A stretch of DNA of 64,000 nt from Armatimonadota bacterium (GTDB lineage: Bacteria > Armatimonadota > Zipacnadia > Zipacnadales > JABUFB01), in NCBI GenBank assembly GCA_013314775.1, contig JABUFB010000007.1, positions 1 to 64,000 of the forward strand. Direction: 5' to 3'. How positions within the stretch are numbered: position 1 is the first letter of the stretch; each line of letters opens with the position of its first letter. Shown here in pieces: positions 1,172-59,221 of this stretch. The translations under genes were made by a program, and so were the position numbers. The notes under the pieces were generated by a model. It was given only the letters and a program-made list of their open reading frames with translations, ran no database searches and was not told where the DNA came from.

Positions 1172-1243
1172 TGCGACGCGGTCCGTACCAGCGCTCTCGC
1201 GTGACGGCCGGAATGGGTCGCCGAGGGACGTGCCCCCCTCGAC

Positions 1244-2647
1244 TCACGGCCTCGCCCTGATCGCCAGCGCGATGTCCCGGCTGAAAGCGGGCGACGTCAG
1301 TTCAAATCGACCCTCGCCATGGTCCACAGTGCTCTCCTGGATCGTCTCGCCGCTCACCGGGCTCACCCAGCGCACCGTGTAGCTCCCAGGGGGCGCGTCC
1401 AGGCTGAGCTCGGCGCGCAACTCCCGGGCTTCATCCGCCGGGTCGTACAGGTAGACCGCGTACTGCCTGCCCGGGTCCGCCAGTCCCCACCCGCGCGCCT
1501 GACCGGCATTGATCTCCGCCCCGAGAGGCTTCATCCGGATGAAATCGAAGCTGCGGATGAAGTCCCCGAGGGCTCTCAGCTGCTTCCGCAGTTCGGGCCC
1601 TCCGCCCCCGGGCTGGCTGTCCGGGTACTTGAAGGTTCCGTCCTCATGCCCCACGGTGAAGGAGTAGTCCAGATTGTTGTACAGCCCGCCGCCTGCGAGA
1701 ATGAACGCCCAGCCCTCCCGGCGGTAGTGCTCATCCGCGGTGCCCTTGAAGCCGGTTTCGTTGTCGCCGATCACGCGGTTGAGGCGGTAATTCATCCCCA
1801 CCGTCACTGGCGGCCAGGCATAATGGAAGTTGAGGATCGACACCGCCGGGTGAGGGTCAGTCACCTGGGCCTTGCCATTGGCGATGTTCTGGGAAATGAG
1901 ATGGCGGTTGGGTAGACTGTCCTCGGTCTGCGTGATGACGACCGCAATCCGCCGTTGCCAGTCATCGGGGACACCCCGTGTGTACGGCTCGTTCATGATC
2001 TCGAAGAAGATGTTGTCGAATCCATTCAACTCAGTGACGACCTTCCGGGTCATCGCTTCCTGGACTGCCTGCAGGCCGTCGCTCTCCGTGAGGGAGTACG
2101 CCTTCTGGCGAGACACCTTACCCACGCCGTTGACATTGTTCGCCGCGTTCATGGGGCTGATGTTCCACTGCCCATCTCCGTAGAAAGGACAGAACAGGTT
2201 GATCTCCACCACGATGCCCCGATCAGACGCCTGCTGCACGAAGTCGGTCAGGCGCGCGAAGTAGGCGTCGTCCCACCGCGTGAGGTCGAACTTGTTGCCG
2301 CCCCTGGCGTAGCCAGGCGTACTGCTCCGCGCCCAGGGGCAGATCAGCCTCCCGGCAGCCGGGGCAAGGGTGTTGCGGGCGATGCCGAAAGCGCCCTCGG
2401 GCTCCATGTATGCACCCACGAAAGTGCGGGTGTGGTTCATCCCGTCGCGCTTCAGCGTCTGCAGGTACTTCACGTAGTCGAAGTCGAGATTGAGCACCGC
2501 GCCGTAATGTTCAGCGCTGGTAATGAGCACTTCGGCTTTGCCGCGGAAAAGGAAGTAGTGGGGATTGTCCGGGTGCAGCCGCAATGGGGCTCCGCACGCG
2601 CAGAGCGTGAGGAGAATCAGCAGCCCAACACAGAAAGCAGTCATCAT
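1244..2647 (-). CDS. Secreted or lipoprotein glycoside hydrolase, clan GH-A-like (DUF4038/apiosidase-like)
   Basis: The 467-residue protein starts at the ATG at 2647, preceded by GAAGGGAG; longer upstream frames run into the helicase gene. Residues 1-20 form a hydrophobic signal with a lipobox-like LCAC, so it may be a lipoprotein. The body is a TIM barrel: LRLHPDNPHYF and EHYGAVLNLDFDY near the start, then FFEIMNEPY, whose Glu in the N-E-P motif is the expected acid/base of clan GH-A. IGDNETGFKG may supply the nucleophile. The last ~70 residues form a beta-sandwich ending, like the domain that follows DUF4038 barrels. It probably cleaves a plant or algal glycan outside the cytoplasm; the substrate is not evident. 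It is the last gene of a four-gene minus-strand run, 40 bp after the helicase. Confidence 0.85.
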   Translation of the reverse strand: MMTAFCVGLLILLTLCACGAPLRLHPDNPHYFLFRGKAEVLITSAEHYGAVLNLDFDYVKYLQTLKRDGMNHTRTFVGAYMEPEGAFGIARNTLAPAAGRLICPWARSSTPGYARGGNKFDLTRWDDAYFARLTDFVQQASDRGIVVEINLFCPFYGDGQWNISPMNAANNVNGVGKVSRQKAYSLTESDGLQAVQEAMTRKVVTELNGFDNIFFEIMNEPYTRGVPDDWQRRIAVVITQTEDSLPNRHLISQNIANGKAQVTDPHPAVSILNFHYAWPPVTVGMNYRLNRVIGDNETGFKGTADEHYRREGWAFILAGGGLYNNLDYSFTVGHEDGTFKYPDSQPGGGGPELRKQLRALGDFIRSFDFIRMKPLGAEINAGQARGWGLADPGRQYAVYLYDPADEARELRAELSLDAPPGSYTVRWVSPVSGETIQESTVDHGEGRFELTSPAFSRDIALAIRARP

Positions 2648-2687
2648 GCCGGTCTCCCTTCGGCGTGCCCGAGTTTCACCCGCGGGG

Positions 2688-5600
2688 CTATCCGACCCGC
2701 TTGCGCAGGATGATCTTCGGTGACTCGCGCACGGCATCGAACCGCGCACAGAGGGCGTCGGAGTACGGGCTTTCGGCCGCCGCCTCTCCGTTGATCCTCG
2801 CGACCACAAGCCGGTGCTTTGGCTGGAAATCGCGCTCCAGCAGATTCGCGAGCGGCGCCAGGCAATCCTGCATTGCCGGGCTGTCGGGGGGGATAGTGAA
2901 ACTCAGGTCTGCCCCGTCTCGCTGAATAACAAGCGCTCTCCGGGAGCCCACATACACGATCCAGTTTCCGGGGACACGCCTTGGTAGACCGTGTTTGAGC
3001 GGTTCCAGAGCGGTTCCGCAGAGAGAGACGGGATCGCAAGCGTTGATCCACCAGACAGCATGGCGCGGGAGATCCCGCTGGAGCTTTCGCAGGGCGGCAG
3101 GGGTAGCGAATTGCGGTCCCGGAATGCCCTCGAAGAAACTGCCGCCCACGATCTCCCCGGAGAGCTCCATCAGCCGCAGGGCCCGAAACACCGCGGGCCA
3201 GCGGAACAGCGGCCCCTCATGCACCAGGAGCTCGCGGAAGACGACGCCGTAGCGCTCCAGCAGCAGGCGCGCCCGGTCTTTCGCGCGCTCTTCCTCTTCC
3301 AGTAACCCTTCGCCTCTGGGCGGATCGGGCAGGCGGAACCAGCTTCCGGCATACAGCGCGGCGCCGGCGGAACGAGGGCGGCGAGCGAAGCCGCGCCGTC
3401 CCCGTCTCGGCTGAGGCTCCGATACGCTCGCCGTCGTGTGCCGGAACCCGCAGGCGATGCCCCGGCGCAGACTGGCCACGGTGTCATTGGTAAGGAAGCC
3501 GCTCCACACCGCCGTCCAGAGAACATCAGCCAGGCGCTCGGGCCCAATATCCGTCCGCGTCTCCAGGGCGCGCAATGTATACCGGGCGTCCGGGTCCTGG
3601 AAGAGCTCGCGCAGTTCATCAGGCATTCTTCGTGCGGTGTGTGCGCGTGTCAATTCCAGGTCATCTGCGAGACAGAAAGCCACCTTCTGTCGGGCTCCCC
3701 CGATCCACAGCAGTTGTCCCTCGTTCATCAACCCGTCCAGCAGAGCCGGGCGGTAGTCCCGGACACGCGCGGGGAGGATGGCCTCCTCCCAGAGCTCGGC
3801 TCGAGCCTCAAACCCGCTCAACTGCTCCAGCGTCGCCCAGACCTCATCTGCGCCCTCGCCTGGTGTGCACAGACCCTGGTTGAGGGCCAGGAACAGTGCA
3901 AGATCCTCCGCGGGAAGAGGCTCGAAAGCGGGAACTGCCTCGGCCCGGGCCATGCGCAGCAGCGTCTCGAAGTTCGCGCTGTCGCAGATGTCATTGGCGG
4001 GGCCATTACGTACCAGCAGTCCGTCGATGACAGCCTCCGAGTCGATGAGGTCCTCGACGCATTCGGCCACCCGCTCCGGGTCCAGGCCCAGGGTTCTGCC
4101 GATGAGGTCGGGGTTCACCGGACCGAAGAAGCCCAACCACTCGCCGAGCACGGCCAGCAGTCGTTCGTCATCGGGGCCGGGGTGCTGGGTGATCGCGGGC
4201 GCGGGACCATCCCCCGCAATCGGCCGCGCAGCGACACCGGGTCCCCAGATAGGCAGGACGCGGCGCAGATCCTCCACGGCCGCCACGAGTTCCGTCTCGG
4301 AGCCGGGCGGTCGCAGCCACACCAGCTTGCCCTTGGCGTCGTTGAGCAGCGCATTCGGGTCCGCGCCCAGGTCTCGCTTCACCGCCGCCAGCAAATCTGC
4401 CCACTCGCTCTCCGGGATCAGGACGCGCTCCTTGGCCCAGTCCACGATGTCGCGCGCGGTCTGGGGAGCGTACCCGGGCGCGAGGCGCTTGCGCTTGCTC
4501 TCGAACCTCGCCACGAGTTCGGGCGTGATCGTGGGTCGCAGCGAGGGCGAGAAGACTACTTCGCGCAACAGGTCGCTGCGAAGTTGGGATTGGGTGCGTC
4601 CCGTGGGGGTGTCATCGGCGTACATGTACTGGTTGGTCTGGCGCCAGCTCAGTACGCCGGCGAAGGGACTCAGGTGCTCGGTGCGAACCTCGGCCCAGGT
4701 AGTGACGCCACTCTCCAGCTCCTCAAGCCGTTCCTGCAGCCCCTCCATGTCGAACTCGTCCTGCAGGCAAGTTCGCCAGGCTTCGAGCAGGATCGGGAAA
4801 TCCTCGTAGTCCAGCACCGCTTCGAGGAGTGCTTTCGCACGCAGGCGCGTAACCCACAGCGGCATACGCTGGTTCATCTTGTGGCGGGTGATGAGCAATG
4901 CGCGCCCGGCACATTCCCGGAAGCGCGCTCCAAAGAACCCCGAGCCCTCCACGGACTTGCGGAGCAGTTCGTTCAGCCGCGCGCGGGTTACGAGAGACAG
5001 GACCTCGGCGCTGTCCACATCCTCGGTCGTCACGATGTCCACCACGTCATTGGACGGGTACACCTCAGGCCTCACGCCGAACCGTTCCTTCCAAGCCTGC
5101 GCGAGGGCCATGGCGAAGGGTCTGTTGATCGTCCCACCCCAGAAGTTGTGGATGCAGATCTGACTGCCCGGCACATTTCCCGGGCCGGCCGCGATGTGTT
5201 CGACCACAATCTGGTGGCGGTGCGGCAGAACACCTGCGCAGAAGGTCTTCTGCAGCCGCAGGTAGGACAGCAGATCGTGGGCGGAATCCGCGTCCAGGCA
5301 GTGACGCTGCATCAATTCGCGCGCGAACTCCGGGTCGTCCAGGCGGTTCTCGGCACTCTCAAGGAACTCGGCGATCCGGGTGGTGAAGTGGGTGTCGCGG
5401 CCCCATTCCTCGCCCCTCCAGAAGGGGGCGTCTTCCGCGGAGCGCCCGGTCGGGGTCACGAACACGTCATTGTGGGTAATGCGCTCGATGCGCCAGGCTT
5501 GAGCGGCGAAGGCCATCGCCTGCCCTGGCGCTGCTTCCCACACGAACTCTTCATCCAGTTCCCCGATGAGCGCATTGGTGCGCTGGTCGCGCAGGTGAAG

Positions 5601-45321: not shown

Positions 45322-46725
45322 CTACGGGTTGACCAGTGATTCGCGGACGCCGAGAGCCATGGCGACGTTGGTGAGATCCGTCCAGACAGGCGGGCTGCTC
45401 ACGGGAGCGTCCCTCCGCACCTGATCACGCACGGCCCAGTAGGCGGCGACCCTGGAGGGCGGCATCATGCGCTCGAAGATGGTGTTGAACTCATCCGCGC
45501 TCGTGGCCCGGTAGGCGGTGAAATAGTCGGCATAGGCCAGCGGCATCAGTTCGGGGTGGGCACCAGAGCCTGCGCCAAAGGGCATTTGCTCGGCCCGGCG
45601 GCACATCTCCTCGAAGAGAACCGCCATGCCGCTTGCCGACACGTTCCGCAGCGAGGCGTTGGCTGACCCCAGCGCGTCAAAAAGCACGGGGTCCCCGACA
45701 TGCCGCGTGAATTCCGCCAGAACCAGGGCCATGATCATCTCGTTATGGGCGATGAACTCGGCGGGCAGGTCGCGGATACGGTAGAAGGCGTAGCGAGCCT
45801 GCATGTCCGCCGAGTAGGCGTTGCGGATGGGCGATTCCGCCACGCCCGCTGCCTGCAGGCGGTTGTAGAGCCAGAAGTCGCGCAATGACGCCGGGGGCTC
45901 CGTCTTCTCCACAACCAGAGCGTCATTGGCGGCAAACCAGTTGAAGTACTCTTGTTCCTCCTCGCTGGAGTAGAGGAACGCCATGGCATCCGCGATGGTC
46001 TCGGAATAGACCGCGGCCCGATTCGGGACCGCCTCGTTCGTGTAGTGTACGTTGTCCGGGCCGTAGGAGTAGCTTCGCCGGTCGATTGAGAAAATGTGAC
46101 CCCGGCGATGGGACGCATCCTGGGTATGGGTCAGCTCGTGGATGAAAGTGGCATTGACCTTGCGGGCCCGACCGCCCCACTGCGAGTTGTTGGTGAAGGC
46201 GTATGCGCCCAGACTCATCTGGCCTGCCCACGGACTGTCGTCTGAGTTGTGCCGGGCCGATGGCCACACACGGTTACCCGCCCCGATCCATGCTCCCCAG
46301 TGATGGGCAGCGACCTTCACGGTCCTGCCACCCACAGTCATCGTGGCGTTTAGCGGTTGCAGATCGTTCAGGAGCAGCACTAACACAGGCTTGCGTGTGA
46401 GGTCCGTCACGAGACGCGCATATTCCTGGAGCGAGTCGTCGCCGCCGTGGGCGCGGTCCGCCATGAGCGCCTTGACCAGGTTCTGCAGGACGGCGATGCC
46501 GCTGGTCGTCCAGAAACTGCCCTCGAAAGTCCCCGCGATGATCGACTCGTTGTTCAAGATCTCCGGGTCCGCCGGCGGGTTCTGGTTGGGGTTGGCCACA
46601 TAGCGGAAAGACAGGCGGTCCTTGAGTATCTGCTGGTCGGCGGGGGTGGCCTGTACAGGCTGCACAGCGCCGATAGCAATGGTGATGAGCACCGCCGGCA
46701 CGGAAGTCGTCCATCTGGGTCTCAT
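45322..46725 (-). CDS. Exported zincin-like metalloprotease, last gene of the paralogue operon
   Basis: The 467-residue protein starts at ATG 46725, preceded by GAGGAGGGACGAGC. It has a signal peptide (~1-26). The zinc motif HELTH (196-200) is followed by YSETIADAMAF with Glu242 as a likely third ligand, which gives the H-E-x-x-H...E layout of gluzincins. The spacing is wider than in thermolysin. It lies 12 bp after the last of six paralogous exported proteins, so it could cleave or anchor them. No family name was recognised. A plain housekeeping exported protease is the alternative. Confidence 0.75.
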   Translation of the reverse strand: MRPRWTTSVPAVLITIAIGAVQPVQATPADQQILKDRLSFRYVANPNQNPPADPEILNNESIIAGTFEGSFWTTSGIAVLQNLVKALMADRAHGGDDSLQEYARLVTDLTRKPVLVLLLNDLQPLNATMTVGGRTVKVAAHHWGAWIGAGNRVWPSARHNSDDSPWAGQMSLGAYAFTNNSQWGGRARKVNATFIHELTHTQDASHRRGHIFSIDRRSYSYGPDNVHYTNEAVPNRAAVYSETIADAMAFLYSSEEEQEYFNWFAANDALVVEKTEPPASLRDFWLYNRLQAAGVAESPIRNAYSADMQARYAFYRIRDLPAEFIAHNEMIMALVLAEFTRHVGDPVLFDALGSANASLRNVSASGMAVLFEEMCRRAEQMPFGAGSGAHPELMPLAYADYFTAYRATSADEFNTIFERMMPPSRVAAYWAVRDQVRRDAPVSSPPVWTDLTNVAMALGVRESLVNP

Positions 46726-46737
46726 GCTCGTCCCTCC

Positions 46738-48855
46738 TCAGGTGGCCGGAACTTCGTCCACGAACAGCACTGCCTCACTGGAGGTCTGTCGTCCGCTGGA
46801 TACGCTGCGGTTGCCCGTCAGGCGCCAGTTGATCTCGTAGTCGTAGTCGTACTCGTCCCTGGGAAGCATGAACTCGATTTTCTCGGACAACTGGTCCTTC
46901 GACGGGTTCAGGGTGGCCTGACGAACTTGCGCAGCCCCCGCCAGGTCATAGTGGATTTTGACCGTTACCAGACGCACCTGGGCATCTTTGAGCATGTCCG
47001 CGTCCGCTTGCAGTTCCACAGATCGGCGCTGGTATGGCGGAGCGAGGTTGATCGCACCCTCCGTCGCGTCGCGCCAGGGCTCTTGTACAGTGTTGCCGCC
47101 GAAGAAGCTCCACGTGGTCTGGTACTGGTAGTTCAGCCATTTGCTGCGGTTGTTATCGCCTTTCCAGCCATAGAGGAGTTTGAAGTTGTTCCCTTCCTGG
47201 TTGAAGTTGTTGCGGTCGATTCGTACCTCATCGTCGGTGATCTCGCCGCTCTCGTGCTTCTTGCGCAAATGCACAGTGACGAAGTTGATGTATTGGCCGA
47301 AGTCCGTGGCGTTCATCCCGTCCACGAAGGCTACGATTTCGCGCTGCCTGTAAAGCGGATCGTCCAGGTTGACCTGCCGGAAATGGCTCTCATCATCCAT
47401 CAGGCTGCGCAGGTCTCCAATGTTCTCATCGAAGCGCAGAGTGAGAGAGTCGGGGGTGAACTTGTTGAGGTCGATCTTGAAGGTGCCGCGCTGGCGGATT
47501 CGTTTCATTTCGAAGGCGGCAACCACGGCGAAACTGGGAACGGTGCGCTCCTCACGCGGGGCGCGTGTGGCGGTGGATGGCTGGTCAGTGGGCCTTGCGC
47601 GTCGGGCATATTCGCCACCCGTGTCCTCTTCGCGCTGGGCGTCACCATACGACGGACGCGGGGTCTCTTCGCCGCCACCTGCGGGCGCCGCGGTTCCCTC
47701 GCCGCCGGCTGCAGCCGCGGCTCCGCCCTCACCGGCTGCAGGGGCCGGAGTTGCGCCCCCGCCTCCACCCGCGGCCGGAGTGCGATCCGCGCCTCCTGCG
47801 CCTGTCGTGCCGCCTCCGCCGGCGCCAGCGGCTCTTTCGCGCTCCTCAGCTTCGCGGTTCTCCCGTCTGATCCGCTCGTTCTCACGCTCCGCTTCGGCGC
47901 GTGAGTCGCGCAGCATCCGCGATGCCCGGTCCAGCAGGCCGCCGCCGCTCTCTCCGCCAATGCCCGCGAGGGACCCGAGAGAAGGCGTCCCCGTTCCGTT
48001 GAGCGGAGAGAACATCATCTCTGTCAGCTTGTTGTAAGCGGTGGTGAGCAAAGTCTCCAACTTCTCATCGCTGCCTACCTGTGTCACTTTGATCGCGCCC
48101 TCGCGCTGAAGGTCATCGAAGGCGCCTTTGATCTCCGCCGCAAGGTATGTGCCGGCGATCCCCACTCCGAATGCCTTGTGGTCGTAGATCTGATCGAAGT
48201 TGGCCTCAATGACCGCGCGGTGCGGCGAGCGATAGCCGGCCATCTCCATCTCGAAGGTGAAGCTGATGTCGGGAGTGGCGGTCTTGAAGGACTCCCAAAG
48301 CACCTTCGCCCCCAACTTTGTCAGCTGCATGGAGATGGCGGCCTTCTGTCCGTCGAGCACAGGCGCGCTGCCCATGCCCACGACCTGAGTGGTAAACCCG
48401 CCCTTGGGGTCGGCGAAGCTGGATACGAGCCCGAACCTGCCCGACTTGTAAACGACCGGGCCCTGAATCTTCGCACCGGGCTTGATTCGCTGCAATGCCT
48501 GGCGCGCATCGCGCAGCTGCTCGTCGGTGACGTCCAGCGCCACTACCGCGTGGACGATCCCTCCGCCTTCGCCCTCGCGCGCCTCGGGCTGGTCAGCACC
48601 AGTGCGCACGTTCTCCACGTACCGCAGGAAGGAGAACTGGGGCCTGCCGTTCTCGTCGGTTGCGAGCCGCGGCTTGTCGGACACGTAATAGTACGTCATC
48701 TCATCATTGAGGTCCGGGAACAGGGTGAGCTCCCCGGCGGTGACGGGCTTGTCCAGGAGGATCTGCTGGGCACTCGCGCAGGGCGCCAGCAGCAGAGCCA
48801 CCCACGCCACCGTGCCGACGGTCAGGCCGAGCCGTGTTGCCTTCATCCCTAGCAT
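46738..48855 (-). CDS. Exported paralogue family protein, gene 6 of the cluster (with Gly/Ala-rich linker)
   Basis: The start at ATG 48855 shares one base with the preceding stop (TGATG), which indicates coupled translation; ATG 48846 is an alternative. The 705-residue protein has a signal peptide. It shows the shared motifs YYYVSDKPRLATDE and PQFSFLRYVENVR, SAPVLDGQ, TPDISFTFEM, RQVNLDDPLYRQREI, YINFVTVHLRKKHESGE and NYQYQTTWSF. It ends with YDYEINWRLTGNRSV and FVDEVPAT. In the middle (~285-420) a charged helix (RRENREAEERERAA) is followed by a Gly/Ala/Pro/Glu-rich linker. It aligns best with the gene at 51004. The function is unknown. Confidence 0.8.
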   Translation of the reverse strand: MLGMKATRLGLTVGTVAWVALLLAPCASAQQILLDKPVTAGELTLFPDLNDEMTYYYVSDKPRLATDENGRPQFSFLRYVENVRTGADQPEAREGEGGGIVHAVVALDVTDEQLRDARQALQRIKPGAKIQGPVVYKSGRFGLVSSFADPKGGFTTQVVGMGSAPVLDGQKAAISMQLTKLGAKVLWESFKTATPDISFTFEMEMAGYRSPHRAVIEANFDQIYDHKAFGVGIAGTYLAAEIKGAFDDLQREGAIKVTQVGSDEKLETLLTTAYNKLTEMMFSPLNGTGTPSLGSLAGIGGESGGGLLDRASRMLRDSRAEAERENERIRRENREAEERERAAGAGGGGTTGAGGADRTPAAGGGGGATPAPAAGEGGAAAAAGGEGTAAPAGGGEETPRPSYGDAQREEDTGGEYARRARPTDQPSTATRAPREERTVPSFAVVAAFEMKRIRQRGTFKIDLNKFTPDSLTLRFDENIGDLRSLMDDESHFRQVNLDDPLYRQREIVAFVDGMNATDFGQYINFVTVHLRKKHESGEITDDEVRIDRNNFNQEGNNFKLLYGWKGDNNRSKWLNYQYQTTWSFFGGNTVQEPWRDATEGAINLAPPYQRRSVELQADADMLKDAQVRLVTVKIHYDLAGAAQVRQATLNPSKDQLSEKIEFMLPRDEYDYDYEINWRLTGNRSVSSGRQTSSEAVLFVDEVPAT

Positions 48856-50945
48856 CAGCCTCCAATCAGTTCCTTGAAGCGGTCCAGCACTTTCTCGGTA
48901 GCGGTCTGTTCCAGTTGTTTGCCGGCATCCTTGTACACGGAAGTCTGCAGCAGATCCTCGGGGATCGTGGCGTAGATGTAGTCGTCGCCCACCTTCGCGC
49001 CCCAGGGCAGGACCAACTTGCCTTCGGTCTTGTGGTTCAGGATCAGGCGACACACGTAGCCGCGGCTGTCGCGGTCCATGAAGATCTGGCGCGAGACCAA
49101 CGGCTGGCCCTGGGCGGGGGACAGGTGAATGTTCTCCTCGGTCTCCTGTCCGAATTTGAAATACCGAATCTGCGCAGTGGCCCGGGTGATCCCACTCGCC
49201 TTCATCTCGTCTAGATCACCCTCGAACTCGATGGTGCGGGGCTTCACTGGTGGCGCGAGGGTTACGCCCTCCCAACTGCCCTTGATCCACGGCGGGTTCT
49301 CGGGGAACACATTGCCACCCCGCAGGCTCCACTGTGCCTGGTATTCGTACACGTCCGGGTTGGTGTCCTCGCCCCGGGAGTAGGTGACCGTCGCGGAGAT
49401 GCCTTTCTCTTTGATGTAGTTGGCATCGATGGTCACGTGGTCCTCAAAGTTGTTCCCCTTGTCTCGGGTTTTTCGCACGTTCACAGTCACGTAGTTGACG
49501 GCTTCGTCGAACATTTCCTTGGCGTCCAGGTCCAGTATGAAGTTGATGTCCCGGTGCTGGAAGAACGGGTCGTTCAGGTTCACCGTAGCCACGCAGCGCG
49601 GGTTGTCGCGCACGCTGTCATACCAGCTCGAAAGGTTCGCAACCACCGAGATCGGGCGCTTGATGGCTATTCGGTAGTTGAGACTGATTGTCTTGTCCTT
49701 CTGGGCGAGGGAGTTCTCGATGACGCTGCGGTTGAATGTATACGAGTTACCGTGGCGGATATCGGGGATCTCGTTCTCCTTCTTCTCGTCGCCCTCGGGC
49801 GGGGGAGGCATCTCTGGAGAAGCGGGCTCCGCAACGGCCTTGAGGAAGTAGTCGAAGAACGCGTCGCGCACCTTGGCGACCCGCTCATCCGCCACGAGTT
49901 CGTCGAACTTGACTTCGACGATGTTTTTCTCCAGCAAGAAGTCGTATTGCTGGCGGATCTCGTCGTAGGAGTACGAATACTGGGGCGTCTCGCTCTTCCA
50001 GATGGGTATGCCGAGAAGACTGTATTTCTTGGTCGTAGTTCCGGACTGCCAGCGCTTGTACTCCGCGTTGAGCTCGTTATGATGGGTCTCCAGCTTGGAC
50101 CAGTGGAAGGTAATGGTTCCCCTGGCCGCGGGGGTGAGCGTGGTGTAGGCGTAGTTCAGCGCAACAGAAAGGTCCGCGATGGAACTGGTCTTGGAGAAAG
50201 TGGCGCCCATGAGTTGCGCGCCTTCGGGCGAGAGCCGAGAAGCCGCCGCGACCTTGCCGCCAGGAACCAGCGGCGCTTTCCCGGAAGTGACCAGGGAGTA
50301 GGTCAGTCCGCCTTCGCCCTCGTTTGAAAGGGTGCCGGAGACAATCTGGAACGAGCCGGTATCGCCTTCGTACTCCAGCGGCGCGGCCCCCGCGAGTTCA
50401 GCGCCCTTGATCTTATCCTTGAGCTTCGCGGCCAGCTCCCGCTCCTGTTCCGGTGTGAGGCCCCACTCCATGAGGAAGTGGAGCAGCCCGCCTTGTGCAC
50501 CGCCCTGATCCACGCGCTTCTCAGTGGTGTACATGAGAAACAGGAACTCGGGCGTTCCGTCCGGCCTGCGCGCCAGGCGCAGATTGGTGGGCAGATAGTA
50601 GTACTTGGTGGCGAAAATCATTGGTCGAAGAGCAAGGGCCAGGCGCGGAGCCACCACCAGCGACGTCCGTACCCCGGCGACGCGCGGAGCGGCATACGCC
50701 TGCGGCCGGGTACTCACAATCATCGGCTGAGGCGGCTGCGGCGGCGCAGGGATGCTGGGCGGCGGGATGGATGTGGCCTGGGGCAGCAAGGTCACCTGGG
50801 TCCCGTCGTCCAGCACTATCGTTATCGGGTTCTCGTCATCCAGCGCGACGGCGTCTGCGGTCTGGGGCAGGGCGGCAAGGAGCACCAGAACCGCCGGCAC
50901 CACCTTTGCGATCAAGAGATACCTGCGACTTGTGATTGAGCCCAT
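48855..50945 (-). CDS. Exported paralogue family protein, gene 5 of the cluster
   Basis: The 696-residue protein starts at ATG 50945 after GGAGGGGAGACG. A signal peptide (~1-33) and a Pro-rich segment (~55-75) precede family motifs: KYYYLPTNLRLARRPDG, FQIVSGTLSNEGEGG, TSGKAPLVPG, VNLNDPFFQHRDIN, VNYVTVNVRKTRD and EYQAQWSLRGGN, then a beta-rich end (APPVKPRTIEFEGDLDEMK, TATEKVLDRF). It lacks the FIDEMP-type C-terminus of genes 4 and 6. Its last stop base is the first base of the next gene. The function is unknown. Confidence 0.8.
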   Translation of the reverse strand: MGSITSRRYLLIAKVVPAVLVLLAALPQTADAVALDDENPITIVLDDGTQVTLLPQATSIPPPSIPAPPQPPQPMIVSTRPQAYAAPRVAGVRTSLVVAPRLALALRPMIFATKYYYLPTNLRLARRPDGTPEFLFLMYTTEKRVDQGGAQGGLLHFLMEWGLTPEQERELAAKLKDKIKGAELAGAAPLEYEGDTGSFQIVSGTLSNEGEGGLTYSLVTSGKAPLVPGGKVAAASRLSPEGAQLMGATFSKTSSIADLSVALNYAYTTLTPAARGTITFHWSKLETHHNELNAEYKRWQSGTTTKKYSLLGIPIWKSETPQYSYSYDEIRQQYDFLLEKNIVEVKFDELVADERVAKVRDAFFDYFLKAVAEPASPEMPPPPEGDEKKENEIPDIRHGNSYTFNRSVIENSLAQKDKTISLNYRIAIKRPISVVANLSSWYDSVRDNPRCVATVNLNDPFFQHRDINFILDLDAKEMFDEAVNYVTVNVRKTRDKGNNFEDHVTIDANYIKEKGISATVTYSRGEDTNPDVYEYQAQWSLRGGNVFPENPPWIKGSWEGVTLAPPVKPRTIEFEGDLDEMKASGITRATAQIRYFKFGQETEENIHLSPAQGQPLVSRQIFMDRDSRGYVCRLILNHKTEGKLVLPWGAKVGDDYIYATIPEDLLQTSVYKDAGKQLEQTATEKVLDRFKELIGG

Positions 50946-51003
50946 CGTCTCCCCTCCTGATGTATTGGCATCCGCAGCGCACAATGCGGCCCGCGAGTTG
51001 CGC

Positions 51004-52737
51004 TTACTGTTCGGGCATTTCATCAATGAACACGAGCCCGCTTGAATCCTGGCCGGAAGCGGTCAGGCGCTGACCCGTCGTGAGGTGCCACGTAATCGTG
51101 TAGTTGTAGTCGAACTGTCCGTTCGGCAGGACGATCTCGACCTGCTGCTCCTCGATCGGCTGGTCGGGTCGCGCCACAAGCTGGTGTTTGCGAATCTGGC
51201 CGAAAAACGGGTAATCCACCTGGACGATGGCGGCACGGACACCCCGTTCCTTCAGCTTCTCCGCATCGCCCAGCAATTGCACGGTGCGGCGCTCGTACGG
51301 AGCGTAAACGTCGATCATCGGCGCCTCGGCATCCACCCATTCCGTGTCATACGCCCCGCCGCCCTTGAAGCTCCAGCGCGTCCTGTACTGGTACTTGAGC
51401 CAGGCCAGACGGTCATCGTCTCCGTCCCAGCCGTAGATGACCCGCGCTTCACCGAGAGCGTCCTTCACGCTCTCACGGTCGATGAGCACCTCCTCGATAG
51501 TCTCCTTACCGCTTTGGTGTTGTTTGCGTACCGTGACTGTGACCGAATTGATATACTTGTCGAAGTCGGGCAGGAGCGCACCGTCCACCCCGATCCGAAC
51601 TTCGCGCTGCTGGAACACCGGGTCCGCTAGATTGAAGGCCCGGAAGTATCGTTCATCGGTTCCGTGCTTCTGGTAGAAGTCGCCCACGTTGAACACGATG
51701 AATCCGTGCCGCTCCACGTTCGAACGATGGTTGAAGTCCATCACACTGATGCCCGAACTGCGCATCTCCTTGAGCTGGAACCCCGCGTACAGGCCGAAGT
51801 TGGTGGTCCTGCGGCTGGAAAGGATGCCGGAGCGCTGGTCGATGAGCGCGCCCAGTGCTTCACCCAGACCGCCCCGCTGAGCTTCGGGCACCCGGTCGGG
51901 CTCCACGGGTCGGAACATCAGCTCCAGCAGCTTCGCGTACACGTTGTTCAGGAGCGCCTCCATGGATTCATCGCTGCCGCTGGACCGGAGCTTGATGGCA
52001 TTGTTGCGCAGCAGGTCATCGAAGGCCAACTCCACGTCGGCGCTCACGAAATAAACGGTCCCGCCGGCCGAGAACGCCTTGCTCTTGCGCACCTCTGACC
52101 AGTCCACGGTCAGTTCGGCCTCATACGCGTCGGTGAGACCGCTGAAGGTCATGTCGAAGACCACGGAGACATCCGGGGTCGCCATGGCGAAGCTCTGCAG
52201 GAGAAGGCTGGCCTGCTGCGGGGTGAGATCGAAGGAAAGGGCGATGCGGTTGCCCTCCAAGACCGGCGCAGCGCCAGATGCCAGTATCCTGCGCTGAGTG
52301 CCGCCATCGGGGTTGATGATCGACGACACAAGGGCGTAGTGGCCTTTATCGAATACGATCGGCCCGCGTATCCGCACATCATCGTCTTGGGTGATCTCCC
52401 GCAGTGCCCGCTGGGCCTCCTGGACCCTCTCGGGAGGGGTCTCATACAGCAGCAGGAGGGTGAGTATCCCGCCACCGGCCGCCGCGGAGATGGTGTTCGC
52501 GGAATCGGTCTCGCCGGGCTTGGTCATTGCGTAGCGGATGAACGAGAACTGCGGCTGCCCCTGCTCATCGGTGGCGAGGCGGGCCTCGTCGGGAATGTAG
52601 ACATACTCCTGCGGGTTGGTTACCAGCGGAAAGCACCACAGCCCCTCGGCGCGCACGCCGCGGTCGATGGAGACCTGCTGCGCCTCGGCCGAGATCGTGA
52701 GCGCGACCAGCACCGCCACTGCGAGCACGGCTCTCAT
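51004..52737 (-). CDS. Exported paralogue family protein, gene 4 of the cluster
   Basis: The 577-residue protein starts at ATG 52737, overlapping the preceding stop as ATGA. It has a signal peptide (~1-20). It is the plainest family member: YVYIPDEARLATDEQG then PQFSFIRY, RIRGPIVFDKGHYALVSS, LASGAAPVLEGN, TPDVSVVFDMTF, RAFNLADPVFQQREV, YINSVTVTVRKQHQSGKE and KYQYRTRWSFKGGG, with a final YNYTITWHLTTG and FIDEMPEQ. The strand-like repeats of alternating hydrophobic residues suggest several beta-sandwich or Ig-like domains. Its C-terminal ~200 residues are clearly homologous to those of gene 6. No known family was recognised. Confidence 0.82.
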   Translation of the reverse strand: MRAVLAVAVLVALTISAEAQQVSIDRGVRAEGLWCFPLVTNPQEYVYIPDEARLATDEQGQPQFSFIRYAMTKPGETDSANTISAAAGGGILTLLLLYETPPERVQEAQRALREITQDDDVRIRGPIVFDKGHYALVSSIINPDGGTQRRILASGAAPVLEGNRIALSFDLTPQQASLLLQSFAMATPDVSVVFDMTFSGLTDAYEAELTVDWSEVRKSKAFSAGGTVYFVSADVELAFDDLLRNNAIKLRSSGSDESMEALLNNVYAKLLELMFRPVEPDRVPEAQRGGLGEALGALIDQRSGILSSRRTTNFGLYAGFQLKEMRSSGISVMDFNHRSNVERHGFIVFNVGDFYQKHGTDERYFRAFNLADPVFQQREVRIGVDGALLPDFDKYINSVTVTVRKQHQSGKETIEEVLIDRESVKDALGEARVIYGWDGDDDRLAWLKYQYRTRWSFKGGGAYDTEWVDAEAPMIDVYAPYERRTVQLLGDAEKLKERGVRAAIVQVDYPFFGQIRKHQLVARPDQPIEEQQVEIVLPNGQFDYNYTITWHLTTGQRLTASGQDSSGLVFIDEMPEQ

Positions 52738-54614
52738 TGCTGCCCACCTCCCGGCGCTGGCGGTGCAGGCTGCGCATCAGCCGGCTCGGGTGCCGGCGCC
52801 GGCGGCGCGGCAGGGCGTTCCGGCGGGGTCAGGTAGAGGTAACCGGTGTCCAGCAGTTGCAGACTGCCCTGGACCGTGCGGTCGGGGGCATACCACGAGA
52901 CCCGGTAGGCGATGGGTTCGCCGCGGTCGGAGTAGATGGACACACTCCTGGTGGATTCCACATCGGTTGCCCGCAAGGTTGCCTTCCGTTCGAGACGCGG
53001 TTTGTTGGCCAGAACGCTGGCGAAATCCACCACCGCTGTGGCAACTCCCCGCTCCGTGAAGAGGGCACGGTCCGCGTCAATCTCGACCACGCGCTTTTCG
53101 AATGGCGGCACCAGCGCCACCGCGGAATCACTGGACGATATCCACTGGTCTTCCCGCGCCGGGACGGGCACGGTGGGGCGGTCACGCACACTCCAGCGTA
53201 CCTGGTACTCGTACTTCAACCAGTCCGCGCCCTGTGCGCCCAGGCGGGGGAAAGACACATCCTGCACCGTGCGGCCGGCCTCGATGTCTGCGTGGGAGAA
53301 ATAGAGAGACTTGGTGACCGCCGGGCCGTCCTCGTAGGACTTGCGGAAGTTCACCGACACGAAATTGATGGTGTCCTTGAACGCGTCGAGGTATTCGCCG
53401 TCCACCTGGAAATGGACAGTGCGCACCTCGAAAGCCGGGTCGGCGAGGTTCACCACCCGAAAATAGCGCTTGTCCTGTCCCAGGGCCGAGTACAGGCCGC
53501 CCAGGTTGCCTGCAGTGTCCACGGGCACCCGGATGGTAGAGTTCTTCGAGAGAACCGCATTGAAGGTGTTGTGCCGAATATCCTTGCGGTTCTTCAGCAC
53601 GAACTGGTCGTCGGTGTAATACTTCTGGTCGCCCGTGCCGGTGAACAGCTTCGCGAGCCAGCCTTTCTCCTGACGGCCCTTGATCTGGTCGGCTTCCACC
53701 GCCGTCTCCCGCTCCGGGTCCGCCGCCCAGCCTGCCTTGAAGTCGAACATCAATTCCGTCAGTTTCCCAGTGATGATATCCAGGATGCTGCGGATCTCGT
53801 CTGCCTTGATCCCCAGGCCGGCAGTGCGGTCCAGCACCTCGATCTTCAGCAAGCCCGTGCGCTGGAGGTCGTCGGTGATATCCCGGATCTGCCGCCGCGT
53901 GTACTCGTACTGCACATTGTGCAGGCGGCTGTAGTGCTCATAGACCGTGTTTACGTCCGCCGTGACTCGGGCGTTGTACCCCATCACCGCGGCCTCGTAA
54001 TATGCGTGGATGGCCACGGACACATCGGACGTCGGACCCGTGAGTGAATCCCACAGCAGCGTGGCGCCCTTGGGTTCGAGGATCGCGGCGACAACCGCCT
54101 TCGAACCCGGAGTCAGCGGAGCCTTGCCCGAGGTGATCAGGGTCCGGGTGAACCCGCCCTCGGCCTGGTCGTTAAGGATTGCCGAGACCACCTGGAAGGA
54201 TCCCATGCCCTCCTCGCCATCCTTCACGGCCTGCATGAGGGGCACCGGCCCGATGATGCGACCGTTTGGGACCTGCTTCTTAAGCTCCTTGTCCAGGTCC
54301 TCCACCATGTCCGGGGGCAGCGTGAACTCCACAAGCGCATGGAACAGCCCGCCGCTGGTCTTCCCTTCGGGGTCCACGTATTTGAGGCACAGCAGTTCCA
54401 GTGTTCCGTCGTCTTTGGTCGCAAGTCGGGGGTAACGTGGCACGTAGTAGTAAGCAGTGGGGTCGGCGTAGTCCTGCAGAAGCTGAATGCCCTTGATGAA
54501 CCGCTGGCCTTGGTCGAGATTCACCAGCGCTGCGCAAGGCGGCGCACACAGAGACAAGGCAAGCCCGACAAGACACATCATGATCCATGCGCCGAACCGG
54601 CCTGTAGCCCTCAT
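52734..54614 (-). CDS. Exported paralogue family protein, gene 3 of the cluster
   Basis: The 626-residue protein starts at ATG 54614 after GGAGGG. A signal peptide (~1-29) precedes YYYVPRYPRLATKDDG, ELLCLKYVDPEG, MGSFQVVSAILNDQAEGG, TSGKAPLTPGSK, LWDSLTGPTSDVSVAI, FRVVNLADPAFEVR, INFVSVNFRKSYEDG and KYEYQVRWSVRD. A Pro/Ala-rich tail (~595-626) may be unstructured or a cell-wall or surface tether. Residues ~300-340 are charged. It is most like gene 5 in its first half and genes 4 and 6 in its second. Its stop overlaps gene 4. The function is unknown. Confidence 0.8.
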   Translation of the reverse strand: MRATGRFGAWIMMCLVGLALSLCAPPCAALVNLDQGQRFIKGIQLLQDYADPTAYYYVPRYPRLATKDDGTLELLCLKYVDPEGKTSGGLFHALVEFTLPPDMVEDLDKELKKQVPNGRIIGPVPLMQAVKDGEEGMGSFQVVSAILNDQAEGGFTRTLITSGKAPLTPGSKAVVAAILEPKGATLLWDSLTGPTSDVSVAIHAYYEAAVMGYNARVTADVNTVYEHYSRLHNVQYEYTRRQIRDITDDLQRTGLLKIEVLDRTAGLGIKADEIRSILDIITGKLTELMFDFKAGWAADPERETAVEADQIKGRQEKGWLAKLFTGTGDQKYYTDDQFVLKNRKDIRHNTFNAVLSKNSTIRVPVDTAGNLGGLYSALGQDKRYFRVVNLADPAFEVRTVHFQVDGEYLDAFKDTINFVSVNFRKSYEDGPAVTKSLYFSHADIEAGRTVQDVSFPRLGAQGADWLKYEYQVRWSVRDRPTVPVPAREDQWISSSDSAVALVPPFEKRVVEIDADRALFTERGVATAVVDFASVLANKPRLERKATLRATDVESTRSVSIYSDRGEPIAYRVSWYAPDRTVQGSLQLLDTGYLYLTPPERPAAPPAPAPEPADAQPAPPAPGGGQQ

Positions 54615-54629
54615 CCCGGCCCTCCATGG

Positions 54630-55832
54630 TTACGGGTTGGCCCCGGGGTCGTCCTCTTTCTGGTCCTCTGTTTCGTCTGGTTCGTCTCCGAAGACCTGCG
54701 GCTTCGGGGGCGATGTCACGTCGAGCATCTGCGCCCACGATTCCCGCTCGATCCACTCTCCGGCGGTCTCGGACCCGTCTTGACCGATCTCGATCACACG
54801 GTACCGGTACGGCTTGTCGATCCGCACGGCCACCGGGAATCGTATGCTTCGGGCGTACAGCTCCGGCCTGCCACTTTCAAAGATCACAGACAAACGCGCC
54901 TCGCCGCCCGCAACTGCCTGGGCCGCGATCTCCACCTGTTTCTCGTAAAGGTCCGGCCGCAGTTCGTTGTTGAAGTCATAACAGCGCACTTCCAGCACCG
55001 CATAGCCAGGGGGCAGGCTTTCGTTGATATCGGCGCGCTGGAACAACTCCGGCCAGCGAGCGGCATCGGCGGTGATGGACAAAGCCCCTGCGCGCACCAC
55101 CCGGTTGAGCAGTGCGGGCTCCTCATCCCCCTCTTTGGGCGCCTCGGGGCCCTGGAGGGCCTTGTTCATCTCGGCGATCAGCTCCGGCGAGCCCTGCAGT
55201 TGCTCCACCGGTTCCTCCGGCGCGATGCCGGGCGCGATGAAGGCGTAGCCCAGACTCAGGACCACCTGCCCCTCCTGGAGCGCCTCCCAAAAGAGCTGCG
55301 ATGTCTCATCATCGAGGCTCAGCGTGTAGTTGCGCTCGGTCCAGTACCCAACTGCAGGCTCCTGCCCCGCCTCCTCGAAATGCCCGTCCGGAATCGCTTG
55401 CGGTGGATCCTGCCGCACCGTCGCATACACCAGCGCGGAATCCAGGCGGCTGATGGGCAGGGGGCGCAGGTCCACCGTCCGGCCCGGCTTGTAGAGGGCT
55501 CTGCGTGCCGCCTCGATGTCCGCCAGTGAAGGCCCATCCAGGCGCACCCGGAAGGTCAGAATGCTGCGATGGAGCACAGCGCCCCGATCTCCCGCCGCGC
55601 TGGTGCCGACGTAGCGCATCTGCAGGAAGCGGAGGTCCGGCCGGCCCTCGTCATCGGTGACCAGCGCCACCTGTCCCGGCGGGTAATAGTAGCGGGATGT
55701 GATCTTGTCGTCTCGGTACACCTTCAGGGGGCCCGCCGGGATGCTCAATCTCAGATCCGGGGCCGCCTGCGGGGCGGTCCCAGCGGCCAGCACCACCAGG
55801 CAGACAATGGTTCCAGTTCGGGCGAGGCTCAC
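54630..55832 (-). CDS. Exported paralogue family protein, gene 2 of the cluster (short form)
   Basis: The 400-residue protein starts at GTG 55832, overlapping the preceding stop as GTGA, with GGAGGG about ten bases upstream. A signal peptide (~1-23) precedes SRYYYPPGQVALVTDDEG and DLRFLQMRYVG, a version of the family's first motif. The later DPxFQxREV and RKxHxSG motifs are missing, so only the first half and a final beta-sandwich (PYRYRVIEIGQDGSE) are kept. An acidic tail ends the protein (DETEDQKEDD). It is a diverged, reduced member. It lies 15 bp before gene 3. Confidence 0.76.
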   Translation of the reverse strand: MSLARTGTIVCLVVLAAGTAPQAAPDLRLSIPAGPLKVYRDDKITSRYYYPPGQVALVTDDEGRPDLRFLQMRYVGTSAAGDRGAVLHRSILTFRVRLDGPSLADIEAARRALYKPGRTVDLRPLPISRLDSALVYATVRQDPPQAIPDGHFEEAGQEPAVGYWTERNYTLSLDDETSQLFWEALQEGQVVLSLGYAFIAPGIAPEEPVEQLQGSPELIAEMNKALQGPEAPKEGDEEPALLNRVVRAGALSITADAARWPELFQRADINESLPPGYAVLEVRCYDFNNELRPDLYEKQVEIAAQAVAGGEARLSVIFESGRPELYARSIRFPVAVRIDKPYRYRVIEIGQDGSETAGEWIERESWAQMLDVTSPPKPQVFGDEPDETEDQKEDDPGANP

Positions 55833-58096
55833 GGATTTTCGCCACCCTCCGCCGGCTCCCCGGTAGTCTCTCCGCCTTGGTCTTCAACAGTCTCGGCCTG
55901 GGCGCCGGGCAAGCTCCCCAGTGCCTGCTGGATCTGAACGGTCCCGATCAGCACCCGCAGGCTGTTGTAGGGAATCCAGTTGACACCCTCGTGCATGGTG
56001 CCGTCGGGCATGACCACGGTCAGCGTGTACTCGAAGAGCGGGTCGCCCGGGACATCTTCGCCTGGCTGGCGGTTCACGAGATGGATCGGGCCCAGCGTGA
56101 ATTCCGTCTGGTCTTCGGTCAGGGGCAGGTCTGGTTTGATCTTCATGTCCCGCACGGTGGGGTCGAAGTACCTGGACCGGACCCGCACGGACAGTTCCGC
56201 CGCGCCCGTGTCACGCAGGGGATTGAGGGTCTTGAAGGTGATATTGTAGGTGCCCAGCGAGGTCACGCCACCGGTAATACCCGCGATCACTGCGTTGTCG
56301 TACTTCTCTCGGTCGCGGTCTTCCGGCACCGAGTAGACCAGCCACATGCGCTTGGCGCGGGCGTCGATCCATGCCGGCACTTTGGCCGCGTCAATCTCCA
56401 CCTGGGCCTTGGGCGGCACCAGGGTGTTAGCGAGACTCCAGGAGTAAATTACCGGAGTGTCCGTGCCCTCCTCGAGCATGAGCACGCACAGGCGCTTGAG
56501 ACTTACGGGGAATGGGGTGGTATTGCGCCAGTTCTGACCGCGGACCCAGTACATGCGGCCCAGGGTGTCGGGGTCAGCGAGGTCGATCGTCACATCAATG
56601 GCCAGCGGGGGCACCTCACCGCTGGGCGTCAGTGTTGCGGTCCCCCGAATGCCGACCCCCGAAGTGAGGGCGAGTTGCAGGTTCTCCTTGGTCACAGTGT
56701 CGGTGATCCATGAAAGGCTGACTCTGCCAAGCGCGTCCGAGATGGCGTTGACCTGAATCTTCTCGGGAGGAATGGCGTACTGGCTCCCAAGGGCGTCGGC
56801 CAGCGAGAAAGCGGGAGCTTGAGAGATGGGCAGTGCCACCAGTTGTGTGAAGGTCTTCGCCTGTTTCTTGCAGTAGGCTTTCACGAGCTCCTGGGCGAGA
56901 CCGATCTCGCTGGTATCCAACCCGCCGTCGAGCTCGGCGGACATCATCACATTGCCCGCCTCCGCGCCCGGAGTCGCGGCCATGTAAAGCATGTCCATGC
57001 CGAAACCCTCGTCAGGCCTCCAGGCCAGCCGGTACGTGCGCGGCAGGAAGTAGAAGATGCCGGATGCAGGGTTCTTGTCCTCATACACATGGGGCCAGAG
57101 CCGACTGATGGCCGAGTAGTCCAGTTGGACCTGGGGATCGACCGCGATGGTGGTCAGCCAGTTGATGGGCTTGTTCGCGGGGCCCTGGCCGCCTTTGTCC
57201 GTGACCGCCGGGGGTACGCCGAACTTGTAGGCCTCGATAGGAACCAGGTTCAGCTTCATGGTGCTTACGGCCGTGAGTTGCGGCGATTCACTCGCGGGTG
57301 TCTCGGCGGGCTTGGGCTTCTCAACTGTCGCCTCGGCTAATGGGATTCGTCGATCGTCCAAGACCGTGCGGCCGCGGATTATCCCCCGGGGAGTCTGGAT
57401 CGCGGGGGGTGGCGGCTGCGGTGCCGGTGCTGGCGCGGGTTGGATCATCAACGGCGCGGCCTGCAGGAGCTTCGGATCGATCTTCAGCACCTGAACAGGC
57501 GGTTTGACGATTGGGTCGGCCGCCCCCCCAGGCTGGGTCTTGAGCTGCGCGGCTGCCCCCTCGGGTTCCGCAACCACCTTGATGACCAGATTCTCGAGAC
57601 TGATCTCGGACTGCCATTTCTTGGTTACGGAGTACGTGCGCAAGAGTTCCGGAAGCGTCCTGCCCTCTCGGATCACCTCGAGTCGCAGACCCGTTGACTG
57701 GAACGCAGTTCCCTCGGGGAGATCGGGAGCCAGCGTCAGCAGCATATCAAGCTCCCCGTCGGCTGCCGGCGCGGGAACGACCACGACCGGAACGCCGGGC
57801 TGAGCCTCACCCTTGGCCCCGAGGACCGTGCCCCGCAGCTTCCTGCCCGCCATCCTCTTGTAGCTCACCCGCAACCCCAGACGGGTCTCAGTGTCCTCGG
57901 TCACAACTACCTTGGTGAGTTCTGACTTTCCACCCCCCAGGAGGTCGCCCAGGAGTGACGTTACATCCTGGTGCGGGCGCAGTTCGCTCCCCTGGATGCC
58001 GCTGAACCCGTCGGCCCAGGCCAGGCCATGCAGCAGAAGAAACGTGGCGGCCAGGGCTACGGGAAGTCCGGTGTTTCTCGCAGTGGCGGCAGTCAT
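55829..58096 (-). CDS. Exported paralogue-cluster protein, gene 1 (longest, most diverged)
   Basis: The 755-residue protein starts at ATG 58096, with AGGGGGA upstream. It has a signal peptide (~1-28) and an N-terminal domain unique to it (~30-175). A long Pro/Ala/Gln-rich linker (~185-255) with runs of APAPAPQPPPP is followed by a domain with FYFLPRTYRLAWRPDEG, matching the family's first motif. It continues with beta-rich sequence (VDPQVQLDYSAISRLW, WVRGQNWRNTTPFPVSL, EYTLTVVMPDGTMH). It heads the operon after a strong promoter and long leader. The linker suggests a protein that spans or extends from the envelope. The family is not recognised. Confidence 0.78.
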   Translation of the reverse strand: MTAATARNTGLPVALAATFLLLHGLAWADGFSGIQGSELRPHQDVTSLLGDLLGGGKSELTKVVVTEDTETRLGLRVSYKRMAGRKLRGTVLGAKGEAQPGVPVVVVPAPAADGELDMLLTLAPDLPEGTAFQSTGLRLEVIREGRTLPELLRTYSVTKKWQSEISLENLVIKVVAEPEGAAAQLKTQPGGAADPIVKPPVQVLKIDPKLLQAAPLMIQPAPAPAPQPPPPAIQTPRGIIRGRTVLDDRRIPLAEATVEKPKPAETPASESPQLTAVSTMKLNLVPIEAYKFGVPPAVTDKGGQGPANKPINWLTTIAVDPQVQLDYSAISRLWPHVYEDKNPASGIFYFLPRTYRLAWRPDEGFGMDMLYMAATPGAEAGNVMMSAELDGGLDTSEIGLAQELVKAYCKKQAKTFTQLVALPISQAPAFSLADALGSQYAIPPEKIQVNAISDALGRVSLSWITDTVTKENLQLALTSGVGIRGTATLTPSGEVPPLAIDVTIDLADPDTLGRMYWVRGQNWRNTTPFPVSLKRLCVLMLEEGTDTPVIYSWSLANTLVPPKAQVEIDAAKVPAWIDARAKRMWLVYSVPEDRDREKYDNAVIAGITGGVTSLGTYNITFKTLNPLRDTGAAELSVRVRSRYFDPTVRDMKIKPDLPLTEDQTEFTLGPIHLVNRQPGEDVPGDPLFEYTLTVVMPDGTMHEGVNWIPYNSLRVLIGTVQIQQALGSLPGAQAETVEDQGGETTGEPAEGGENP

Positions 58097-58368: not shown

Positions 58369-58397
58369 AGTATATTCCCTGCCATGGGGGTGGTCAA
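58369..58397 (-). promoter_or_regulatory. Sigma70-type promoter of the exported-paralogue operon
   Basis: On the minus strand TTGACC (58397-58392) and TATACT (58374-58369) are separated by exactly 17 bases. Each box differs from consensus by one base (TTGACA, TATAAT). The predicted start of transcription is near 58362. It lies 51 bp beyond the stop of the acetyltransferase gene and points towards gene 1 at 58096. Confidence 0.75.
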
Positions 58398-58447: not shown

Positions 58448-59221
58448 TCACCGGGCAGTCCGGTCAGGCCGGGTGCTGCAGTTGGGGCAAACTGTCTGTG
58501 TCAGAGCGAAGGCGGTATCAACAACATCTTGCGCTTTCATTACCATCACATCGCCGTCGCCAATGCGCCCGTCGCGGATCATGCCCTGGGATCGCATCGC
58601 ACGCTCCAGAGGATCCCATTCCAGCAGACACGGACCATTGCGCCACAGCACGCTCCAGGCAGTCTGGATCGACCCATCCTCCGCCAGGATCTTTCGCTCG
58701 TGCTCCCGGTACCCCATGCAGGGCACGCGAGCGATCGTCTCGCCGATGTGGGCGGCGGTGTTGGCGCGCATGCCCACCCCGAGGAGTACCACGAGGCCTC
58801 CGCGCGAGGCCAGCTTCCCAAGTGGCGAGCGCACGTCGAAAGTGAGTAGGTCCAGATGCTCGCTGGTCAGCCACTCGGCCAGCGGTCCGATCGCCGCGTA
58901 AGGGTGGGTGGGGTGAACGCTCCTGTGGGCTTCGGGACGCCGGCGCAGGGCTTCGGTGATCGCGCCGTTGATTGAAGGCGTCGTGCGCACGTCGAAGACC
59001 TCCGCCTGCCCGTGGTTGAAGGTGGGCACCATCACGGTTCCGCCGGGTGCAACGGCTTTCAGCAGAGCGTCAACCACGGTCTCTGCGCCGCCTTCGACGT
59101 ACCCCAGGGCGCTCAACGAACTGTGCACCTGGATCAGCGCACCCGGGCCGATGCCCAGGTCACGCAAGCCCTGGACGATCATCTCCTCCGTCACGCGGGT
59201 TTTTTCGGCCGGGTCGTACAT
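58448..59221 (-). CDS. AAC(3)-family N-acetyltransferase
   Basis: The 257-residue protein starts at ATG 59221, with GGAGG nine bases upstream. It matches the aminoglycoside 3-N-acetyltransferase family (PF02522): VHSSLSALGYVEGGAE, GTVMVPTFNHG, RSVHPTHPYAAIGP, SPLGKLASRGG and LLGVGMRANTAAHIGE. The His in HPTHPYAAIGP is the expected active-site region. Chromosomal members often act on sugars or unknown amines, not antibiotics, and nothing here suggests a mobile resistance gene. It is on the same strand as the MFS transporter 104 bp upstream. Confidence 0.88.
   Translation of the reverse strand: MYDPAEKTRVTEEMIVQGLRDLGIGPGALIQVHSSLSALGYVEGGAETVVDALLKAVAPGGTVMVPTFNHGQAEVFDVRTTPSINGAITEALRRRPEAHRSVHPTHPYAAIGPLAEWLTSEHLDLLTFDVRSPLGKLASRGGLVVLLGVGMRANTAAHIGETIARVPCMGYREHERKILAEDGSIQTAWSVLWRNGPCLLEWDPLERAMRSQGMIRDGRIGDGDVMVMKAQDVVDTAFALTQTVCPNCSTRPDRTAR

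Follow-up and report, generated by a model that had tools for sequence, protein, structure and literature searches.

Organization of the gene cluster

In the window (the whole stretch of DNA analysed here, 64,000 nucleotides of contig JABUFB010000007.1 from an Armatimonadota bacterium), seven adjacent genes on the minus strand occupy positions 45322–58096, namely, the six consecutive open reading frames described in an earlier note on this DNA, all of which are present, and a predicted zinc metalloprotease gene. All seven products are predicted to be exported. Gene 1 (P1; 55829–58096) encodes a protein of 755 residues with a Pro/Ala linker in its middle, and is followed by gene 2 (P2; 54630–55832; 400 residues), the shortest member; gene 3 (P3; 52734–54614; 626 residues), the most conserved subunit, which additionally has a Pro/Ala C-terminal tail; gene 4 (P4; 51004–52737; 577 residues), a sister of gene 6; gene 5 (P5; 48855–50945; 696 residues), with an N-terminal Pro-rich linker; gene 6 (P6; 46738–48855; 705 residues), with a Gly/Ala-rich insert; and gene 7 (P7; 45322–46725; 467 residues), the metalloprotease. 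The linker types of genes 1, 5 and 6 agree with the earlier description, and so do the three overlapping junctions, which measure 4 bases (genes 1/2), 4 bases (genes 3/4) and 1 base (genes 5/6); the remaining spacings are 15 and 58 bases between the genes and 12 bases to gene 7. A weak candidate promoter (TTGACC-17-TATACT; 58369–58397, minus strand) lies 5′ of gene 1, in a region where a promoter scan gave no more candidates than expected by chance. Directly upstream of the cluster, on the same strand, is a gene of the aminoglycoside 3-N-acetyltransferase family (58448–59221; Pfam E 1e-50), which is not among the conserved genes of the cassette, as we call this gene set here.

N-termini resembling Sec signal peptides, previously proposed for all six proteins, were found in 54 of the 55 cassette proteins over all loci by a crude hydropathy rule, which also flagged, falsely, one of 13 ordinary control genes. 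The cassette products probably reside in the periplasm or on the surface of diderm bacteria.

Kinship among genes 1–6

Judged from BLAST comparisons (E 2e-24 to 2e-63, beyond chance), genes 3–6 are certain paralogues. Gene 2 is, from profile comparison with genes 3–6 (98.2%, E 5.8e-14), a clear partial relative that shares the N-terminal domain with them. For gene 1, kinship is remote at best, the profile links being 83% (E 8e-6) to gene 2, 48% to genes 3–6, and 92% (E 7e-7) to a similar protein of distant clusters (see below). The six paralogues of the earlier note therefore become four certain ones, one clear partial relative and one doubtful member. The same gradation was seen in the first motif (Y-Y-x-P...RLA...G), said to be common to all six, which is clear in genes 2–6 but degenerate in gene 1, where it reads FYFLPRTYRLAW; the late motif (NLxDPxF/YxxR), assigned to four genes, was indeed found in genes 3, 4, 5 and 6. 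Over 17 sequences of genes 3–6, the invariant columns hold G, P, A, L, S, F, W, Y, N, D and R, whereas H, C, E and K never occur among them, a pattern that speaks against an enzyme.

Search for known families

No usable match to genes 1–6 was obtained in Pfam, NCBIfam, PHROGs, PADLOC or PDB sequences, using either single proteins or profiles, and nothing relevant to the cassette was found in the literature searched. The family, which the earlier reader had not recognised, is therefore undescribed as far as these sequence libraries go, and "categorically new" means here that it is of no known kind in the libraries searched. Several known kinds were compared. Known anti-phage defence is represented by a single 17-bit PADLOC row (JetB) for a helical stretch of gene 3, taken as chance, with none for the other genes. 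For phage structural proteins, there was no PHROGs match below E 0.09, and a tblastn search with gene 3 gave zero matches in 50,697 phage records and likewise none in viral contigs. Chaperone-usher pili are disfavoured by a cassette with no usher barrel, no periplasmic chaperone gene and no Pfam match, and membership of the alpha-2-macroglobulin family by the absence of Pfam and PDB sequence matches. Periplasmic substrate-binding proteins of transporters are disfavoured as well: genes 1–6 have no binding-protein family match above the cut-off in Pfam or NCBIfam, and the one sub-threshold NCBIfam row, of 16 bits for gene 4, is not of the binding-protein kind.

Structure models

The AlphaFold2 model of gene 4 (pLDDT 76.5, pTM 0.46) consists of a mixed N-terminal domain followed by two Ig/FnIII-like sandwiches starting at about residues 372 and 480. 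The shared N-terminal domain, mixed beta/alpha in the model, corresponds to residues 20–372 (51622–52680, minus strand), and the two C-terminal sandwiches to residues 372–577 (51007–51624, minus strand); the sandwich region opens with the late DPxFxxR motif. Modelled by itself, the N-terminal domain gave moderate scores (pLDDT 74.6, pTM 0.56), and its fold matches in PDB were weak, the best having Z 7.0 over 116 residues with an rmsd of 3.4. The best rows for this domain, cytoplasmic domains of Kir channels (Z 7.0 or less), were not trusted, nor were the arrestins and Asf1 among the other rows. For the sandwiches, VIA-align listed domains of the FnIII and Ig-like kinds at Z values under 7; rows of cholesterol-dependent cytolysins, which span only the Ig-like last domain of those proteins, were rejected. 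No two-lobed alpha/beta fold was among the fold matches listed, an absence that carries no weight. The Ig-like part of the model has the look of interaction modules.

Complement and alpha-2-macroglobulin-type chains stood near the top of the Foldseek list (E 2e-6) with TM-scores near 0.1, and such matches fit any multi-sandwich protein; the fold comparison with MG domains by VIA likewise gave Z 5–6 with an rmsd above 20. Alpha-2-macroglobulin and complement C3–C5 resemble the cassette models in being strings of beta sandwiches, and their association with proteases has a parallel in one cassette lineage, whereas there is no sequence match, so that at most an arrangement would be shared. Overall, the fold searches were weak and indicated common sandwich arrangements only.

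Occurrence and orthology by position

Genes 3–6 were found in 4 of 291 Armatimonadota genomes, two of the window's genus and two of one genus in another family. In the latter, all seven genes are present in the same order and direction as in the window, with identities of 37, 43, 58, 48, 55, 44 and 31% for genes 1 to 7, respectively (cross-family range in Armatimonadota, 31–59%). A contig scan with gene 3 further revealed the cluster in metagenome-assembled genomes (MAGs) labelled Deltaproteobacteria, Syntrophales and Hydrogenimonas, names which are taken from the titles of MAG records. The version there has six genes in the order P1N, P1C, P2, one P4/6, P3 and P5, except that P1N stands after P2 in one locus (L093); its P3 is 46–50% identical to gene 3. 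Among sampled relatives, the cassette is rare, having been counted in 2/150, 3/247, 5/197 and 7/337 genomes, in sets that overlap and with some matches weak or fragmentary. Each complete cassette has one orthologue per subunit in near-constant order, and in many cassettes the genes overlap or nearly touch. The cluster is thus conserved, and single copies scattered over genomes were not seen. In the long form of P1N (L041, 1647–2984; L092, 3364–4674; L093, 13732–15027), the end resembles by eye a carbohydrate-binding jelly roll (DLSxWAGK...DWAVWVNP); this end has no Pfam match for L041 and is absent from the short Hydrogenimonas form.

Profiles were built from the six-gene version, with Armatimonadota left out, and run on the Armatimonadota proteins. 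The P3 profile scored gene 3 at 698–720 bits and any paralogue at 209 or less, the P5 profile gene 5 at 400–447 bits and paralogues at 201 or less, and the P2 profile gene 2 at 147–163 bits and paralogues at 29 or less, the correct orthologue of these three genes outscoring every paralogue two- to fivefold in bits. With the P4/6 profile, gene 6 scored 543–589 bits and gene 4 441–479, the others having 191 or less; genes 4 and 6 are, on these scores, one lineage corresponding to the single P4/6 gene of the other groups. For genes 2–6, the lower end of each range is the score of the window's own gene. Since the foreign profiles choose the right orthologue, the positions were already distinct before the cassettes separated and have remained so. 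The P1C profile matched the C-terminal half of gene 1 at 61–96 bits (61 bits, E 1e-17, for gene 1 of the window), and the P1N profile gave no significant match to the N-terminal half. Gene 1 is thus apparently split into two genes elsewhere, the equivalence of its N-terminal half and P1N being based on position. Distances between loci correlate at 0.95–0.99 among P2, P3, P5 and P6, a correlation that can arise through linkage alone.

The folE–tig site

The cassette separates folE from tig by 10.59 and 10.56 kb in two Hydrogenimonas-type genomes, whereas in three relatives the gap between these two genes is 127, 129 and 138 bp; the short intergenic sequence of the empty site matches both ends of the occupied one. 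The cassette was therefore gained or lost here as one block, and its rarity in relatives favours gain. One occupied site is on a 2.25-Mb contig, making a binning artefact unlikely. The occupied stretch holds the six genes only, with no visible gene for a transposase, an integrase, a transporter or an anchor.

The gap of another relative (L122 of genome G295, 1336–3750) holds a different insert of 2.4 kb. Its open reading frames look broken and, by eye, resemble VgrG-like and adaptor-like accessories of type VI secretion; the folE–tig site may be a hotspot of insertion. In G297:C1, tig occurs twice with identical score (1187287–1188621 and 1298304–1299638), which may reflect a duplication of 111 kb or an artefact of assembly. 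The type VI-like genes at the site of that other relative, together with the rare and patchy distribution, would suit exported effectors or toxins of the contact-dependent or polymorphic type. We consider this very improbable in view of the constant gene content and the C-termini, which are not variable; moreover, neither a toxin domain nor a small immunity-like partner gene was found.

Distant relatives lacking leader sequences

Relatives of the cassette proteins, encoded as several diverged paralogues in a row, were found in the loci L090 (genome G683) and L118 (G896), on Pararhizobium qamdonense plasmid p2 (NZ_CP119567.1, L094), where every one is annotated as hypothetical, and on plasmids of Paracoccus sp. 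SMMA_5. They share the N-terminal domain with the cassette (profile E down to 3e-32) and also have Ig-like repeats. Unlike the cassette proteins, they mostly lack a signal-peptide-like start, belong to a different gene set, and have more Ig-like repeats (by eye). A relative of 1521 residues in L090 (12851–17416) has an OmpA-like-looking middle (by eye) and a fused C-terminal trypsin domain (Pfam E 1e-9). A conserved gene pair with no Pfam match follows the leaderless cluster (L090, 17699–19641; L118, 15656–17406), and in L118 a gene for an nSTAND1 ATPase with pentapeptide repeats (436–3081) is directly upstream of it. From these profile links, the exported cassette is seen as a single branch within a wider, uncharacterised superfamily. 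Judging by the leaderless members, the domain may function inside the cell too, or leave it by another route.

The metalloprotease

Gene 7 has no Pfam family match, and is a predicted peptidase fitting the zinc metallopeptidase pattern of HExxH with a conserved downstream acidic ligand: HEL[TM]H (HELTH in the window) and a conserved E-x-I-A about 42 residues on are present in all four sequences. Its family occurs in exactly the four cassette-bearing genomes of the 291 from Armatimonadota and is absent beside the six-gene version in non-Armatimonadota loci, so that the protease, as judged from these occurrences, is an Armatimonadota-only part of the cassette. The grouping of the metalloprotease with the six genes, whose co-occurrence the earlier note proposed to check, holds in Armatimonadota but not in the other groups, which have one 4/6 gene and no protease.

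This strict co-occurrence invites another interpretation, namely that the cassette is a secreted protease of several subunits, with gene 7 as the active component and genes 1–6 presenting or restraining the substrate by a protease-trap-like logic. Such a system is also favoured by the trypsin domain fused to a distant relative and by the complement and alpha-2-macroglobulin-type chains in the Foldseek results. The six-gene version has no adjacent protease, however, and TM-scores of the size found suit any multi-sandwich protein; we therefore regard a protease system as decidedly unlikely.

A proposed exported scaffold

Hetero-oligomers of diverged paralogues encoded by one operon are a known principle. 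They have one orthologue per position, a constant order and a shared core domain, as does the cassette, although no sequence or trusted fold relation to them was found. We judge the chances to be about even that the cassette encodes one hetero-oligomeric, pseudo-symmetric scaffold, and what we infer of its assembly, geometry, location and purpose, and of the role of the protease, is as follows. The subunits would be exported via Sec and then assemble in the periplasm or at the surface, probably packing through the shared N-terminal domain, each in its own position, with the Ig-like domains of the C-terminus, as well as the inserts and linkers specific to a lineage, facing outward and binding partners. 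As no catalytic-type residue is invariant, the product would be a structure or binding platform and probably non-enzymatic. In Armatimonadota, two genes would fill the P4/6 position, and the added exported metalloprotease perhaps trims or matures subunits. A hetero-oligomer would explain the kept identity of positions, the presence of the whole set on complete contigs, and the gain or loss as a whole unit.

Operon conservation also fits independent, co-regulated exported proteins. The main rival is accordingly a set of separate proteins for binding or adhesion that recognise different ligands and form no common complex, for which the Ig-like C-terminal domains, the diverse linkers and the strong divergence between paralogues speak. 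Independent binders should come and go singly, whereas the six genes do so together; complete cassettes from the three broad groups carry every orthologue exactly once, and neither a transporter nor an anchoring gene stands alongside. We consider separate binders unlikely, and the lack of an accompanying transporter likewise lowers the odds of the earlier alternative, binding proteins for different ligands.

The scaffold reading may be extended, tentatively and as something possible rather than probable, to an undescribed, horizontally mobile envelope or extracellular ring, tube or filament with one copy of each sister protein and a new N-terminal fold, occurring in at least three broad groups as the exported branch of the wider superfamily. 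Few conserved operons consist of diverged, exported paralogues that lack any known domain. The cassette, moreover, looks like a self-contained functional unit, as it keeps a single orthologue for every position across great distances, is either wholly present in or wholly missing from an otherwise unremarkable intergenic gap, and brings no helper genes along. Since closely related genomes differ in having it, its gain and loss can be tested directly, and, if the proposed assembly is true, the cassette would represent a new type of bacterial envelope structure.
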